IMG/VR virus record: IMGVR_UViG_3300044797_000015
Location: 1 to 35,595 of that record
Length of the DNA: 35,595 nt
Reading direction: 5' to 3' (one strand)
Origin: a virus
The first letter of the stretch is position 1, and each line of letters begins with the position of its first letter. A model generated the notes under the pieces. That model ran no database searches and had not been told where the DNA came from. It saw only the letters and a program-made list of their open reading frames with translations. Of this stretch, positions 21,141 through 27,823 are shown one piece after another. The translations under genes and the position numbers were made by a program.

Positions 21141-21698
21141 CTATAATGCGAGGGCTTTATAAATAGTAGCTCGGGCTAGGTTCATCTTGATGGCAATCTG
21201 GCGAATGCTTGTGCCTTTTTCCTTAAGAGCGTGCACTTCTCTCTCTACTTCTTTATTTATCTTGGTCTTTCTTCCTAGCTTCCTGCCGTTCTTCTTCGCC
21301 ATATCAATGCCTTCTTTCTGTCTGGAACGAATCATTGATCGCTCAAATTCGGCGAAGGCACCCATCATTTGAAGCATGAGCGTTGCCATTGGATCAGCAT
21401 TGGCCGTAAAAAAAAGGTTTTCTTTAACAAAGCAGACAGACACGCCTTTCTTTAAAAGCTCGTGAATAATTTCTTGTAGGTCTCTTAAGTTTCGCGCAAG
21501 CCTGTCGATGCTATGAACGGCAAACGTATCGCCTTCGCGAACATAGTCCATAGCCTCACGAAGTTTTACTCGGTCATTCGCACTTTTTCCGCTCATGACC
21601 TCAGTAAATACTTTATCAAGCTCTTTTCCGTCCAATTGTCTGTCGGTGTTCTGACCTTCGGACGAAACACGAATGTAACCTATTACTTGATGCTTCAT
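21141..21698 (-). CDS. Small serine recombinase (resolvase/invertase)
   Basis: The 185-aa product is a complete member of the Tn3 resolvase/Hin-Gin invertase family. It has catalytic Ser12 in YIRVSS, the SIDRLARN motif with Arg66 and Arg69, the long helix E (FAEFERSMIRSRQKEG) and a C-terminal helix-turn-helix (TSIRQIAIKMNLARATIYKAL). The usual size is 180-200 aa, so nothing is missing. It is too small for phage integration of the large-serine type. It could resolve dimers of a circular genome, invert a fibre segment, or insert at a dif-like site. No obvious pair of crossover sites was spotted near it or the fibre genes. Confidence 0.9.
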   Translation of the reverse strand: MKHQVIGYIRVSSEGQNTDRQLDGKELDKVFTEVMSGKSANDRVKLREAMDYVREGDTFAVHSIDRLARNLRDLQEIIHELLKKGVSVCFVKENLFFTANADPMATLMLQMMGAFAEFERSMIRSRQKEGIDMAKKNGRKLGRKTKINKEVEREVHALKEKGTSIRQIAIKMNLARATIYKALAL

Positions 21699-22066: not shown

Positions 22067-22155
22067 GAAACTAATGAATTTAACTTTACGACACCCCTAA
22101 ATGGCACTTTAGGATATGGACTAAAAAAGTGTACTTTTATGACATAGCAAGAAGG

Positions 22156-22248
22156 TGAGGGAATTCCACCCTCAATCACGTTTAGTTGCTGGCGTGTGTG
22201 CAAAGCTACATTAGAGTCGCGCTCTCCTCTGGCTTGGTAGCTATAGCC
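22156..22248 (-). ncRNA. tRNA-like four-hairpin RNA element
   Basis: On the minus strand four hairpins follow each other: GGCT/AGCC with a ten-base loop (22248-22231), AGAG/CTCT (22225-22213), TTGC/GCAA (22203-22186) and TGAGGG/CCCTCA with the seven-base loop TGGAATT (22174-22156). The order matches the D, anticodon, variable and T arms of a class II tRNA, and the last loop keeps U54, a purine at 57 and A58. No acceptor stem or CCA is visible. It resembles the elements at 25045-25347. It fills most of a 314-base gap without genes. Confidence 0.4.
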
Positions 22249-22288
22249 TCTCAATCATCGGCTAGCATCCCGATTGAGTTCTTGAGTA

Positions 22289-22321
22289 CCGCAATTGCGG
22301 AACCATTTACCGTAATTGCGG
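22289..22321. promoter_or_regulatory. Tandem palindromic sites
   Basis: The perfect 12-base palindrome CCGCAATTGCGG (22289-22300) is followed 21 bases centre to centre by CCGTAATTGCGG (22310-22321). The two-turn spacing puts both on the same face of the helix, as for two dimers of one protein. They lie just beyond the end of the DnaB-like gene. An operator, a partition site or an origin element are all possible. Confidence 0.5.
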
Positions 22322-22327
22322 TGACAA

Positions 22328-22954
22328 TTAACCTTCTTCGTGAGTGTCTTCGATGTGACGAATAGTATCAACAAGAGCCTTGTTCACTTCTATAAGAGTG
22401 AATTGCAAATAGCTTTCACAAAACTCATGGGGATTTGATGAATCAATCTCTTCCGCTAATTCTCTAAATAAGGAAGCTAGGCGCACTTGCTCCGTACAGA
22501 AAGCAGGGCTGTATAAATCTTTTACCTTGCTTTCGGCATCGTCCAATATTTTTGCTATGGCTTTGTTTCCGGGCTTTTTAGCTTCGTGTGCTATTTCTGT
22601 AGCGACTTGAAGCAATTGTCTTTGAACTGATTTCTCACGAATAATATCAGCATGGGCGCAAATATTGGCAACAGACGGGCATTCATTAGCTAAGTTAAGA
22701 AGCAATGATTCTAGTGAGTTTTTTAATTCACATGATTTATTTTCACCCATTTCATCAACTATCATAGCAATATCAAATGTTTTTCTTTTGTCGTGAAGTA
22801 TGCTCATCGTATAAAATATTGTTCCAAATATTTCTCTACTAAAATCTTCTGGTGCTATTTTTTCATGTACTTTTAAAAATTGGCTACTATCTAATAACAA
22901 TCCGCCAATAACAGCTTTTTCTGATTCTATCGATTCAATTTTACGTCCTTTCAT
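22328..22954 (-). CDS. DnaB helicase N-terminal domain protein without the ATPase domain
   Basis: The 208-aa product matches the first part of replicative helicase DnaB. Residues 8-30 (ESEKAVIGGLLLDSSQF) and ICAHADIIREKSVQRQLL (98-115) are typical of the N-terminal domain, and LDDAESKVKDL (137-147) of the linker helix. After that the sequence departs from DnaB and stops before any Walker A motif; the whole RecA-like motor (about 250 aa) is absent. I see no separate gene for it. It may bind host primase, DnaB or the phage helicase loader (gene at 29725) as a decoy or regulator. It overlaps the DUF6378 gene by four bases. Confidence 0.75.
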   Translation of the reverse strand: MKGRKIESIESEKAVIGGLLLDSSQFLKVHEKIAPEDFSREIFGTIFYTMSILHDKRKTFDIAMIVDEMGENKSCELKNSLESLLLNLANECPSVANICAHADIIREKSVQRQLLQVATEIAHEAKKPGNKAIAKILDDAESKVKDLYSPAFCTEQVRLASLFRELAEEIDSSNPHEFCESYLQFTLIEVNKALVDTIRHIEDTHEEG

Positions 22955-23919: not shown

Positions 23920-24080
23920 GATTGATAAAACCTTAATAATTCCTCATAAGCATTTTCAATTTTACCGATGACAACTTCCACTTCAAACTCTATATTTTCA
24001 AGATCATTAAGTGAATCTAGCGCAAGCGTCAGTCCATCCAACGCGCTTGAAACAAGTTCTTGCTTTTCAAATTCAGTCAT
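23916..24080 (-). CDS. Tiny acidic helical protein
   Basis: The 54-aa product is acidic and helical throughout (LDGLTLALDSLNDLENIEFE). Its start overlaps the stop of the Tad2-like gene and its stop overlaps the next start, both by ATGA. The overlaps support it as a gene. The function is unknown. Confidence 0.5.
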   Translation of the reverse strand: MTEFEKQELVSSALDGLTLALDSLNDLENIEFEVEVVIGKIENAYEELLRFYQS

Positions 24081-24451
24081 ACTTCGATCCAATCTTCTGC
24101 TTTAAAATCCCCAAAGGTAGGATTGAAAGTAAACTGTGACATCTTATGTAAAACCAGACCGTCTGTTGGGTCTAGGTAAATATAAAACTCAGGCTTCCAA
24201 TCACTCATCCAAGCGCGTGTACCTTTTTGCAAATCTGGTATTATTTCGCAAAAGGTCTTTGCCTCGGGTGCACCTTCGACCATCCAACCATCAGACACCA
24301 TAATGTCTTCGGTATATATATAATGCTCTAACACTGGTTGATACGAATGCACTTTTCCTTCTTCCATTAAAAAGTACAGGCCATCACGCCAATCATTTCG
24401 GGTAACTTTCTTTCCTGCTTTTAGCAAATCCATTGCATCGCAAAAGTTCAT
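24077..24451 (-). CDS. Tad2-like (DUF2829) domain protein, early copy
   Basis: The 124-aa product opens with FCDAMDLLKAGKKVTRNDW (3-21), the signature of DUF2829/Thoeris anti-defence 2 proteins, and closes with FGDFKAEDWIEV, the matching C-terminal strand. The middle is longer than usual (typical members are about 70-100 aa) and holds a second Trp-rich part (RAWMSDWKPEFYIYLD), so a partial duplication is possible. Known Tad2 proteins bind and hide the signal made by Thoeris TIR enzymes. Early expression would fit such a job, but this is inference. It overlaps both neighbours by four bases. Confidence 0.65.
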   Translation of the reverse strand: MNFCDAMDLLKAGKKVTRNDWRDGLYFLMEEGKVHSYQPVLEHYIYTEDIMVSDGWMVEGAPEAKTFCEIIPDLQKGTRAWMSDWKPEFYIYLDPTDGLVLHKMSQFTFNPTFGDFKAEDWIEV

Positions 24452-25029
24452 TCTCCAATCTCCTTTAATCGTTCCGTGATTACACTGCTATGAACGGGTC
24501 GTAAGTTATGAAGCTCTACGGCCACGTTAAAATAATTTTCGTCCTCTATGTAAGTATCAAAGGCTTCTCTAATCATCATCTCGCCTTCATTTGTCATTAG
24601 CGAATACAAATTGCTATGACCAACTTGAACTTTATTGCTATGCAAATGACCGTGAACATTAAGCCAAAATCGACCACCCAAATGCTGAGGATGTACGGGA
24701 ATGTGGGTTAATATACATCTCTTCCAATAGTGCGCACCAAAGAGCCTTTGAAAATGACGAACATATAAATCGAAGCTATGACAATCGTGATTCCCCATAA
24801 CGAGACGCTTGTGGCCATTAAGCCTGTCAGCAATAGGCACATTGATAGCACCAAAAGCAAAGTCACCGAGATGAAATACAATGTCTTTCGGACGCACCGT
24901 ATCATTCCAATTGGCAATAAGTTGTTCATTCATTTCCTCCACGGTATCGAATGGGCGAGCTTCCTTCTCATATTCAAGGATATTCTTGTGTCCAAAGTGG
25001 TGATCGGACGTAAACCAAGTCTCAATCAT
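24448..25029 (-). CDS. Calcineurin-like metallophosphoesterase
   Basis: The 193-aa product has all motifs of the metallophosphoesterase fold: SDHHFGH (8-14), HLGDFAFG with Asp56, GNHD (79-82), LTHIPVH (108-113) and NVHGHLH (124-130). These coordinate two metal ions. Members of this size cleave phosphodiester bonds in nucleotides, cyclic signals or RNA ends; the substrate cannot be told. An AAGGAAG site precedes the ATG. It follows the tRNA-like RNA block by 15 bases and is coupled to the Tad2-like gene, so degradation of defence signals or processing of RNA ends are tempting hypotheses. Confidence 0.85.
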   Translation of the reverse strand: MIETWFTSDHHFGHKNILEYEKEARPFDTVEEMNEQLIANWNDTVRPKDIVFHLGDFAFGAINVPIADRLNGHKRLVMGNHDCHSFDLYVRHFQRLFGAHYWKRCILTHIPVHPQHLGGRFWLNVHGHLHSNKVQVGHSNLYSLMTNEGEMMIREAFDTYIEDENYFNVAVELHNLRPVHSSVITERLKEIGE

Positions 25030-25044
25030 AATACTTCCTTAAAA

Positions 25045-25167
25045 TGGTGGGATGGCAGGACTTTCACCTGCACCTACCTCGTTACTCGCGTGCTAACCAC
25101 AAGCATCACGATCTCGCCAGAGGCAAAATTAGGCGCTCTTCGCTTATAGCTTTTCGAGCTCCATCCC
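25045..25167 (-). ncRNA. Large tRNA-like RNA with acceptor stem and ACCA end
   Basis: On the minus strand GGGATGG (25167-25161) pairs with CCATCCC (25055-25049) and is followed by ACCA (25048-25045), exactly as a tRNA acceptor stem with discriminator A and CCA. Inside are GCTC/GAGC in the D-arm place, CGCC/GGCG, CGTG/CACG and a T-arm-like GCAGG/CCTGC with loop TGAAAGT. At 123 nt it is longer than any normal class II tRNA and its T-loop lacks the usual UUC, so a standard decoding tRNA is unlikely. It ends 16 bases before the phosphoesterase start codon. Confidence 0.5.
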
Positions 25168-25178
25168 ATAAAGCGGGG

Positions 25179-25266
25179 AATTTGGTCATCGAATCGAACG
25201 ATGACTTTATAGCATCATTGCGCACTTCCACTATAAAGGTTATACCAATAACCCGATCCCATAATT
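25179..25266 (-). ncRNA. Cloverleaf RNA with canonical D and T loops
   Basis: The minus strand shows a 7-bp end stem with one bulge, AATTATGG (25266-25259) with CCAAATT (25185-25179). Next come a D-arm GGTT-ATTGGTAT-AACC (25253-25238), an extended middle arm TTTATAG/CTATAAA with an 18-base loop (25237-25206), and a T-arm GTCATCG/CGATGAC (25205-25185) whose loop TTCGATT is the consensus T-loop. The D-loop GG and the T-loop UUCGA are what make tRNA elbows. The oversized anticodon arm and missing CCA argue against ordinary translation use. Confidence 0.5.
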
Positions 25267-25273
25267 AAATGGT

Positions 25274-25347
25274 TGCGGGCTTCTCACCCGCATGTGTCTG
25301 ACATCTATTACTGCCGCCCCGCAGTTCGCTATTTATGGCTCACGCGA
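25274..25347 (-). ncRNA. tRNA-like four-hairpin RNA element
   Basis: On the minus strand TCGC/GCGA (25347-25326), CTGC/GCAG (25324-25311), ATGT/ACAT (25304-25292) and TGCGGG/CCCGCA with loop TGAGAAG (25292-25274) follow each other, the same order and sizes as the element at 22156-22248. The loop begins UG and has A at the fifth place, as in the two related elements. No acceptor stem is evident, although AACCA follows the last hairpin. A separate hairpin CTCACT/AGTGAG (25356-25380) lies between it and the SSB-like gene. Confidence 0.4.
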
Positions 25348-25386
25348 CCTTGCCTCTCACTTAGTGCCTAGGTGAGTGAGTTCTTT

Positions 25387-25878
25387 TTAAAAAGCTATAT
25401 CATCATCAGCAAATTGATCATCTTCTGCCTTTTGTGGTAAAGGCTTCTGATCATCATTCTTGATATAGTCCTCGATTTTGTTCTTATCAAAGTAACGAGT
25501 ACCCAAGGGTTTGCCTTTTAACTTATCTTGAGGAATTTCGCTACCCTGTTCGATAACTATTTTAACTTGAACACGTTTATTAATCGCGGTTTCTGAGCAA
25601 AGTTTCCCTTCTTCGTACTCTTTAACCATTCCGGCAGAGTCTGCGAAGTGAACAATCTTCCACATCATTTGCTTCGTGAACACTAAGAAATCACGAACAT
25701 CATGCGTCTTGCCGTTCTCATCATAAACCGCCACGGTAATATCCATCATTGGATGACCTTTACTTGAGGTGGTATCTTGTGAAGCGGTAACAACTGCCTC
25801 ATAGATTCCTTCTTTTATTAACTGGAACCGTTCGTTCATTGCTTCCTGCTCTGACATTGGTTGATACTGAAATGACAT
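25387..25878 (-). CDS. DUF669 SSB-like protein
   Basis: The 163-aa product matches DUF669, a family of phage single-strand binding-like proteins encoded beside annealing recombinases. It has an N-terminal region ending in LIKEGIYEAVVTAS, MDITVAVYD and DFLVFTKQMMWKI in the middle, and the very acidic tail DDQFADDDIAF that in SSBs contacts partner proteins. ATG 25878 is chosen because GGAG lies nine bases upstream, within the endonuclease 3' end. With the Sak4-like ATPase it would form the phage recombination module that anneals or repairs replicating DNA. Confidence 0.75.
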   Translation of the reverse strand: MSFQYQPMSEQEAMNERFQLIKEGIYEAVVTASQDTTSSKGHPMMDITVAVYDENGKTHDVRDFLVFTKQMMWKIVHFADSAGMVKEYEEGKLCSETAINKRVQVKIVIEQGSEIPQDKLKGKPLGTRYFDKNKIEDYIKNDDQKPLPQKAEDDQFADDDIAF

Positions 25879-26378
25879 TATATATTTCTCCATGTTATGT
25901 TACGAACGATTCTATCTATAGCGCTTATTGAAGTTCCATAGATTTTTGATAATTCTGTGCAATTCATTGTTTGTGAATATGACGCTCTTATTTTTTTAAT
26001 ATCTTGTTCTTTTAGCTTAGACCTCGCATTCTTCTCACCTTTAGACCCAACATATCCGTTCCTGTTCTTTTTAAACATGTCCTGTGTATTATCTTTTTTT
26101 GTTCCTAACCATAGATGCAATGGGTTAACACATTTCCTATTGTCACATGAGTGAAGAACGCACATACCTTCAGGAATACTACCAATAAAAAATTCATAAG
26201 AATATCTATGCGCATGGTTCCATTTTTTATTTAAACATTTAAATTGCCCATATCCATTGGACTTAATAGTTCCTTTCCATTCCAGGCATCCATTGCTATT
26301 AATTATGATATTAGAATAAAATCTATTCTTATCTGTATTCAATATTCCTGAATCTCGGATGCATCTATGTCTAGTCAT
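25878..26378 (-). CDS. HNH homing endonuclease with C-terminal HTH
   Basis: The 166-aa product has the HNH_3 core: VLHSCDN with His76, KCVNPLHLWLGT with Cys83, Asn85 and His88, then KKDNTQDM. Residues 115-160 form a DNA-binding helix-turn-helix of the kind found after HNH cores (LSKIYGTSISAIDRIV). It lies between the Sak4-like and DUF669 genes, which are usually direct neighbours. It begins two bases after one gene and overlaps the ATG of the other, so it fits without harming either. This is a free-standing homing endonuclease. Its DNA is AT-rich. Confidence 0.85.
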   Translation of the reverse strand: MTRHRCIRDSGILNTDKNRFYSNIIINSNGCLEWKGTIKSNGYGQFKCLNKKWNHAHRYSYEFFIGSIPEGMCVLHSCDNRKCVNPLHLWLGTKKDNTQDMFKKNRNGYVGSKGEKNARSKLKEQDIKKIRASYSQTMNCTELSKIYGTSISAIDRIVRNITWRNI

Positions 26379-27319: not shown

Positions 27320-27515
27320 GCCCGTTTATACATTCAATAACCATATAAAAAGCGGCAAGCATTCCTTTTTCTTCCCCTATCATTATTCCCTCTTCAAATA
27401 TAACCTGCTCGCTTACGCAAGACGGCTCATACTTATGCTTTTCACAGATATTTTCCCAATAGTCGATTCGATGTTGTACCCAGTTTTTGACCTGCTCCAA
27501 AGTAGTTCTTTCCAC
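27309..27515 (-). CDS. Small early protein
   Basis: The 68-aa product is helical, with WVQHRIDYWENICEKHKYEP (12-31) and a second half with GMLAAFYMVIECI. It starts at GTG with AGAGGA seven bases upstream. No family is recognised. It lies second before the recombination module in the leftward operon. Confidence 0.5.
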   Translation of the reverse strand: MERTTLEQVKNWVQHRIDYWENICEKHKYEPSCVSEQVIFEEGIMIGEEKGMLAAFYMVIECINGQRR

Positions 27516-27580
27516 GTTCTTGTCCTCTTAAAATTCATTCTCTCGGATGCTGTTACTTGGTCTTTCATGAAATAGTTCAT

Positions 27581-27823
27581 TTAACCCTCTCCACTTTCTA
27601 GTAAGTCGATGTGTCCGATTGCTGCAAGGGATGCTTCCCCGGCAGAATCAAAGTACTCGTCTGCTTCCCTGATTACGGGCGTTCCCATCCAAAAGTGATG
27701 GTCTCCGCCCTTGTCCAGAATTTTGTAGTAGTAATACAAAGTGTCTGGGTAATCTTCATCGGGGTAAGCCCAAATTTCATAGTCGTAATGACTGTATCGG
27801 TCTTCCCGTACTAGCGTCTCCAT
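27581..27823 (-). CDS. Small Tyr/Asp-rich early protein
   Basis: The 80-aa product is acidic and aromatic (YSHYDYEIWAYPDEDYPDTL, 10-29, then FWMGTPVIREADEYFDSAGE) and looks like a small alpha/beta domain ending in a helix. It overlaps the preceding gene by 13 bases. The acidic, aromatic surface recalls DNA-mimic or inhibitor proteins, but this is only an impression. The family is unknown. Confidence 0.6.
   Translation of the reverse strand: METLVREDRYSHYDYEIWAYPDEDYPDTLYYYYKILDKGGDHHFWMGTPVIREADEYFDSAGEASLAAIGHIDLLESGEG

Follow-up and report, generated by a model that had tools for sequence, protein, structure and literature searches.

Gene setting of the element

The stretch of DNA analyzed here, called the window throughout, is a 35.6-kb (35,595-nt) IMG/VR virus record from an uncultured phage, and all positions are numbered along its whole length. 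The window phage encodes P22-like portal and coat proteins, and its ssb-like protein has no match among 50,697 cultured-phage records. The ssb-like gene follows an HNH endonuclease gene and is itself followed by three structured elements, the phosphoesterase gene, and the Tad2-like (Thoeris anti-defense) gene; a serine recombinase (resolvase) gene lies at 21141-21698 on the minus strand. The features under discussion are these:

25387..25893, minus strand: ssb-like gene, upstream of the type B element (phrog_378, E = 7e-09)
25270..25386, minus strand: third structured element, directly after ssb (L057 5505-5625 at 62% identity; alignable stretch in L064)
25175..25260, minus strand: second tRNA-like element (fold z = -2.41; homologue at L084 5513-5578)
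25168..25172, minus strand: 5′ leader TTTAT (sequence comparison)
25045..25167, minus strand: type B tRNA-like RNA element, encoded ACCA included (16-member alignment; covariance model 123.8 bits at 25049-25167, this being one of the model's own training sequences)
25162..25167, minus strand: acceptor stem, 5′ strand GGGATG, pairing with 25049-25054
25135..25159, minus strand: D arm, GCTC/GAGC stem closing a 17-nt loop (paired in 100% of cells)
25076..25134, minus strand: anticodon arm, stem GCCTA/GAGGT closing a 49-nt two-hairpin domain (5 bp, from the alignment)
25055..25071, minus strand: T arm GCAGG-TGAAAGT-CCTGC, loop at 25060-25066 with G at its second position
25049..25054, minus strand: acceptor stem, 3′ strand CATCCC, pairing with 25162-25167
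25045..25048, minus strand: encoded 3′ ACCA tail (read from the sequence)
24448..25029, minus strand: phosphoesterase gene, downstream of the type B element (phrog_547, E = 2e-47)
24077..24451, minus strand: Tad2-like (Thoeris anti-defense) gene (PF11195, 49.9 bits, cut-off 25)
22150..22337, minus strand: candidate second large element, adjoining a DnaB-like gene (acceptor and T-arm descriptor; z = -2.68)

The phosphoesterase gene, which the initial annotation of this DNA had placed 16 bases after the element, has its ATG (25029) after a gap of 15 bases; a Shine-Dalgarno-like AAGGAA lies within those bases. Among related contigs, which we gathered by their ssb-like and phosphoesterase proteins, tRNA-like elements sit between the ssb-like and Tad2-like genes. 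In 45 of 61 contigs (window counted) a Tad2-like homologue follows ssb within 2.5 kb, and the other 16, some of them incomplete at their ends, have no Tad2-like gene near ssb. The elements therefore occupy the same cargo site as an anti-defense gene of a known kind, a neighborhood that we take as an association only. As judged by inspection, tRNA-like elements of one type or another lie downstream of ssb in about 23 of the 61 contigs (window counted); many related phages have no element at this place.

The 15-nt distance to the phosphoesterase start would suit a riboswitch-like cis-regulatory leader of the downstream gene, as would the T-loop, since cobalamin riboswitches also contain UGNRAN T-loop hairpins. 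Such a leader is nevertheless highly improbable: the downstream genes vary among relatives, Rfam yields no riboswitch match, and a model of this kind gives the encoded ACC tail nothing to do.

Fold of the window element

Read along the minus strand, the element forms a cloverleaf with an acceptor of 6 to 7 bp, a 4-bp D stem, a 5-bp anticodon stem, a variable loop of 4 nt (AGGU), and a T arm of 5 bp with a 7-nt loop. The stems that the initial annotation had read from the letters (GGGATGG...CCATCCC, GCTC/GAGC, two middle hairpins, and GCAGG-UGAAAGU-CCTGC) and the ACCA all lie where, and on the strand on which, it had placed them. Its acceptor of 7 bp holds as a stem but less well as a length: the seventh pair and the first pair of the T stem compete, which leaves an acceptor of 6 bp, or of 7 bp via U25168 with A25048. 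Members with a 7-bp acceptor, for example L211, show a spacing of 7 bp, 2 nt, and 4 bp. The single sequence folds with z = -2.64, and 3 of 200 dinucleotide shuffles fold equally well. A strict descriptor of an acceptor with a flush T arm matches the window twice (25048-25168 and 22150-22337), versus a mean of 0.017 matches over 60 shuffled windows.

We aligned 16 type B copies, 15 of them from other phages. Given no structure, RNAalifold returned a tRNA cloverleaf (acceptor, D stem GCUC/GAGC, anticodon stem GCCUC/GAGGU, and T stem with a 7-nt loop) with compensatory change in 18 of 26 predicted pairs, and the tRNA shape first proposed from one sequence is thus recovered de novo. A hand-drawn structure, derived from the same 16 sequences that it scored, is paired in 96.7% of cells, versus 85.6% in shuffles and 41 to 47% with partners slid by 1 to 3 columns. 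It has double changes at 16 pairs (40 cells), and none of 500 shuffles reaches it on any of five measures; L087 and L181 each have one acceptor base more than the rest and fall out of register at the acceptor, at the cost of some cells. Double changes occur in 5 of 7 acceptor pairs, in 4 of 5 T-arm pairs (100% of T-arm cells are paired), and in 4 of 5 anticodon-stem pairs, where an A-G mismatch (25130/25080) is peculiar to the window. The D stem has a single double change (CG to UA, in L068), and the D-arm loop extends from 17 nt in the window to about 60 nt in relatives. Along with the D and anticodon stems, part of the long internal domain is conserved, and the type B cores show partial conservation between phages. 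In 12 of the 16 members the acceptor is followed by ACC, TTAT precedes most type B members and is also the type A leader consensus (see below), and the second T-loop base is G in 16 of 16, most loops reading UGAAANY. A lack of stem conservation in related phages had been set beforehand as what would refute the initial annotation; we found the opposite, strong compensatory change. That the window element has a tRNA-shaped RNA fold, and not one arisen by chance, is virtually certain.

The type B covariance model scores 70, 61.5, and 54.4 bits on copies outside its training set (L160, L225, and L226), and its next best matches, in a jumbo-phage tRNA array, are an ARAGORN tRNA-Leu and tRNA-Gly (24.3 and 20.8 bits). 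The model thus picks out real tRNAs, which ties the fold to tRNA by a route that does not assume tRNA. We set aside a weak match of this model at window positions 27473-27594 (13 bits), in which many pairs are missing.

The view that this is not a decoding tRNA is borne out: a two-hairpin domain replaces the anticodon loop, which excludes decoding for type B, and ARAGORN finds no tRNA and no tmRNA in the window. We also rejected a decoding tRNA with an intron (there is no anticodon loop, and the internal domain is partly conserved), a DNA cruciform, and a short peptide from an ATG overlapping the 5′ end, whose frame is open in only some members (early stops in L006, L021, L087, and L181). Against the cruciform, G-U pairs are retained, in 11 of 16 members at one anticodon-stem position, which favors an RNA on the minus strand. 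At gathering cut-offs, Rfam has no match in the window, and its tRNA model (RF00005) likewise finds nothing there; membership in a known Rfam family was therefore rejected, in agreement with the earlier suggestion of a new small RNA. At E values up to 10, the region 24700-25700 has six Rfam matches, all far below their cut-offs, among them a DUF2815 RNA match (15.7 bits versus 41.2, E = 8.9) that overlaps the 3′ part of the element.

The initial annotation had not noted that several elements stand in tandem in the window or that the type B element comes from a large family. The second tRNA-like element (25175..25260) has a D-arm-like GGTTA-TTGGTA-TAACC, a long middle arm, and a T arm CATCG-TTCGATT-CGATG; only two members are known, and by inspection the L084 homologue has a terminal stem GCCC/GGGC in place of GGGA/UCCC. 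The third (25270..25386) has a T-arm-like hairpin GCGGG-TGAGAAG-CCCGC and no acceptor stem, and its fold z is only -0.88. The candidate at 22150..22337 has an acceptor AGAAGGT/ACCTTCT and a flush T arm GAGGG-TGGAATT-CCCTC; its counterpart in L099 is 89% identical and does not keep the acceptor 5′ strand.

A sister group and the wider family

A sister group, type A, was found via L012 and combines any acceptor with a GCGTGGACAGTGACACGC D arm, a hypervariable core of 29 to 157 nt, and the T-loop UGCAAUU. The exact type A 18-mer occurs in at least 80 IMG/VR viral contigs. With the T arm picked by motif rather than by complementarity, at least 7 of 8 acceptor pairs form in 74 of 80 copies, compared with about 13 of 80 after the 3′ strands are shuffled. 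The 80 copies carry 51 distinct acceptor 5′ strands, kept paired, and every acceptor pair occurs as at least four pair types in a set that was trimmed to helices; the invariance of the D-loop was imposed by the search pattern and is not evidence. In the L211 copy a D-stem change is compensated outside the search pattern (GCGCG/CGCGC). A start codon with a Shine-Dalgarno sequence lies within 150 nt on the sense side of 22 of 60 type A copies and on the opposite side of 1 of 60, indicating that the copies are co-directional with downstream genes. The exact 18-mer has 13 matches in GTDB genomes, of which, by inspection, about 9 are chance (no T arm follows) and 4 look real (L191, L192, L195, and L196). 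BLAST of the element or of the D-arm core against cultured phages and plasmids returned nothing credible.

The type A copies of L117, L126, L145, and L146 all carry the core GGAAGCAACGTAGCTGAGCCTTCTCCCCAGTGGAT...TTCAGCAAAACTGGAG, in which a pseudoknot could form. Subgroups with a common core such as this one, and conserved type A ends around hypervariable cores (29 to 157 nt), are consistent with a tRNA-scaffolded small RNA, whose cloverleaf base would serve processing and stability and whose variable core would be a phage-specific antisense or protein-binding payload. The type B cores, partly conserved across phages, are not free in this way, and we consider a scaffold unlikely.

Applied to 1.89 Mb of loci, a general descriptor found 75 non-tRNA elements; a Markov control gave none. 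The T-loop starts with U-G in 69 of these 75 and in none of the 7 tRNAs that the descriptor found, a contrast that is partly built in, since ARAGORN favors UU loops and since type A or type B patterns had been used to retrieve many of the loci. G for U at the second T-loop base is common to types A and B. Type A (or A-like) and type B elements occur within the same arrays in L056, L057, L079, L160, and L211, with the leader TTAT in common. Some elements lie at most 100 nt from real tRNAs, and mixed arrays occur in L160 and in the 224-kb contig G031.

Further units were observed in these loci. At L079 5283-5407, one tRNA-like unit is apparently nested in the core of another (AAAAAACG...CGTTTTTT, with its own T arm), and the type A element of L121 likewise appears to hold a nested unit. 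Possible additional types starting with TTTATGGC occur in the same arrays (L093, L129, L173, and L160 1957-2101). Tyr-like elements at L045 5509-5600 (on the contig of L023 and L003) and L004 5890-6093 (on the contig of L041 and L077) have a normal anticodon arm, CCCGC-CTGTAAA-GCGGG, and a T-loop UGAAAUC or UGGAAGC; the one in L023 scores 28.9 bits with the Rfam tRNA model, for which the cut-off is 29. G031 (L149, L216, and L228) carries a jumbo-phage tRNA array at about 62 to 72 kb of its 224.7 kb, with 25 tRNA matches over the Rfam cut-off on the contig, intermixed with tRNA-like elements, and with T-loops UGCGAGU and UGCAAGC in two Ser-tRNA-like genes.

Such loci might also arise from degenerate or selfish cassettes of tRNA origin that spread through recombination and bring the phage no benefit: the types shuffle between arrays (window, L056, L057, L079, and L211), tRNA-like units look nested within others (L079 and L121), and a homing endonuclease gene lies nearby. 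Compensatory changes in every helix argue instead for selection on the RNA fold, and make cassettes of this kind quite improbable.

Proposed function

We regard a processed tRNA mimic as the most economical model. The acceptor, T arm, leader, and ACC tail, which are what tRNA-processing enzymes read, make up the conserved half of the element, and the divergent half is where a decoding tRNA is constrained. The element would be transcribed with the minus-strand replication operon; host tRNA-processing enzymes would cut at the TTAT/G leader and at the ACC(A) tail and release a discrete RNA, which would then persist as a stable small RNA. Its acceptor-T-arm half would resemble tRNA, and its anticodon half would present a domain that varies from member to member. 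Its likeliest use may be as a decoy or sponge for host tRNA-recognizing factors, above all tRNA-cutting or tRNA-sensing defenses, acting alongside the Tad2-like anti-defense gene of the same operon. Phage tRNAs counter tRNA-cutting defense (PMC10264068, PMC11555353), and the acceptor stem, T arm, and CCA tail are all engaged by at least one nuclease (PMC12851939). Type B T-loops lack C56 and U55, so their elbow is unlike that of canonical tRNA, and elbow-reading enzymes might miss type B. Our favored reading, a phage-encoded nondecoding tRNA mimic that is processed and probably serves as a counter-defense decoy, is put forward tentatively; its transcription as a discrete RNA, processing, partner, and function are what we infer.

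Alternatively, the tRNA shape could be transcript punctuation, at which RNase P and a 3′ processing enzyme would cut, parting the ssb message from the downstream genes and leaving the excised RNA inert. A Shine-Dalgarno sequence and start codon at most 30 nt past the acceptor 3′ end in 8 of 19 type B copies would fit this, as would the AU-rich leader and tail, and a signal would need little beyond acceptor and T arm. However, conservation extends to the D and anticodon stems and to some of the internal domain, beyond what RNase P requires, the elements are found in arrays and among tRNAs, and many relatives have no element downstream of ssb; we hold punctuation to be rather unlikely.

If the decoy reading extends across the family, environmental phages could carry a fast-evolving arsenal of nondecoding mimics (G55 T-loop, exchangeable acceptors, hypervariable cores, arranged in arrays) that jams or sponges tRNA-targeting immunity, a wider picture that we offer more tentatively still. 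Such mimics would be a testable class of RNA counter-defense beside protein anti-defense genes, and the family could explain part of a long-standing puzzle, the purpose of phage tRNA arrays.

Comparison with known RNAs

The window element is part of a large family of tRNA mimics that environmental phages carry and that appears to be undescribed. The family was not found in Rfam 15 or in the full texts of an open-access library. RNAs with tRNA-like folds, and tRNA mimicry, are a known kind; a family with a G55 T-loop, exchangeable acceptors, and variable cores appears to be new, an undescribed anatomy despite the presence of type A in at least 80 viral contigs. Annotation of tRNAs in viral genomes would miss many of these elements.

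Like canonical tRNA (RF00005), the mimics have four stems in tRNA order with near-tRNA spacing, and ACCA. Unlike it, they lack a 7-nt anticodon loop (49 nt in the window, more in most relatives), have a T-loop that begins UG and not UU, and measure 119 to 183 nt between acceptor ends, and they fall below Rfam and ARAGORN detection. RAGATH-21 (RF03097) shares a closing stem flush with a UGCAAUU-loop hairpin and matches the type A element of L027 weakly, but at 23.9 bits versus a cut-off of 70.3 and with no D arm in the alignment shown; we rejected membership, 0 of 43 records being over the cut-off. YrlA, a bacterial Y RNA, is a nondecoding RNA with a tRNA-like fold, as is the type B element, which however has no Rfam match; no Ro60 domain occurs among the 30 window proteins scanned with Pfam, a scan of phage proteins only. 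In tmRNA, tRNA-like ends flank a long insert in place of the anticodon region. Type B likewise has tRNA-like ends and a replaced anticodon region, but retains D and anticodon stems, has no conserved reading frame, and gives no Rfam or ARAGORN tmRNA match.

Also comparable are the anti-defense tRNAs of phages, among which the tRNA-Tyr of T5 acts against retron-Eco7 (PMC11555353). Those tRNAs decode and replace tRNAs that have been cut, which a nondecoding RNA cannot do, and by analogy this would count against a decoy. The mimics nonetheless resemble them as tRNA-type genes in phage arrays that may counter a tRNA-cutting defense.
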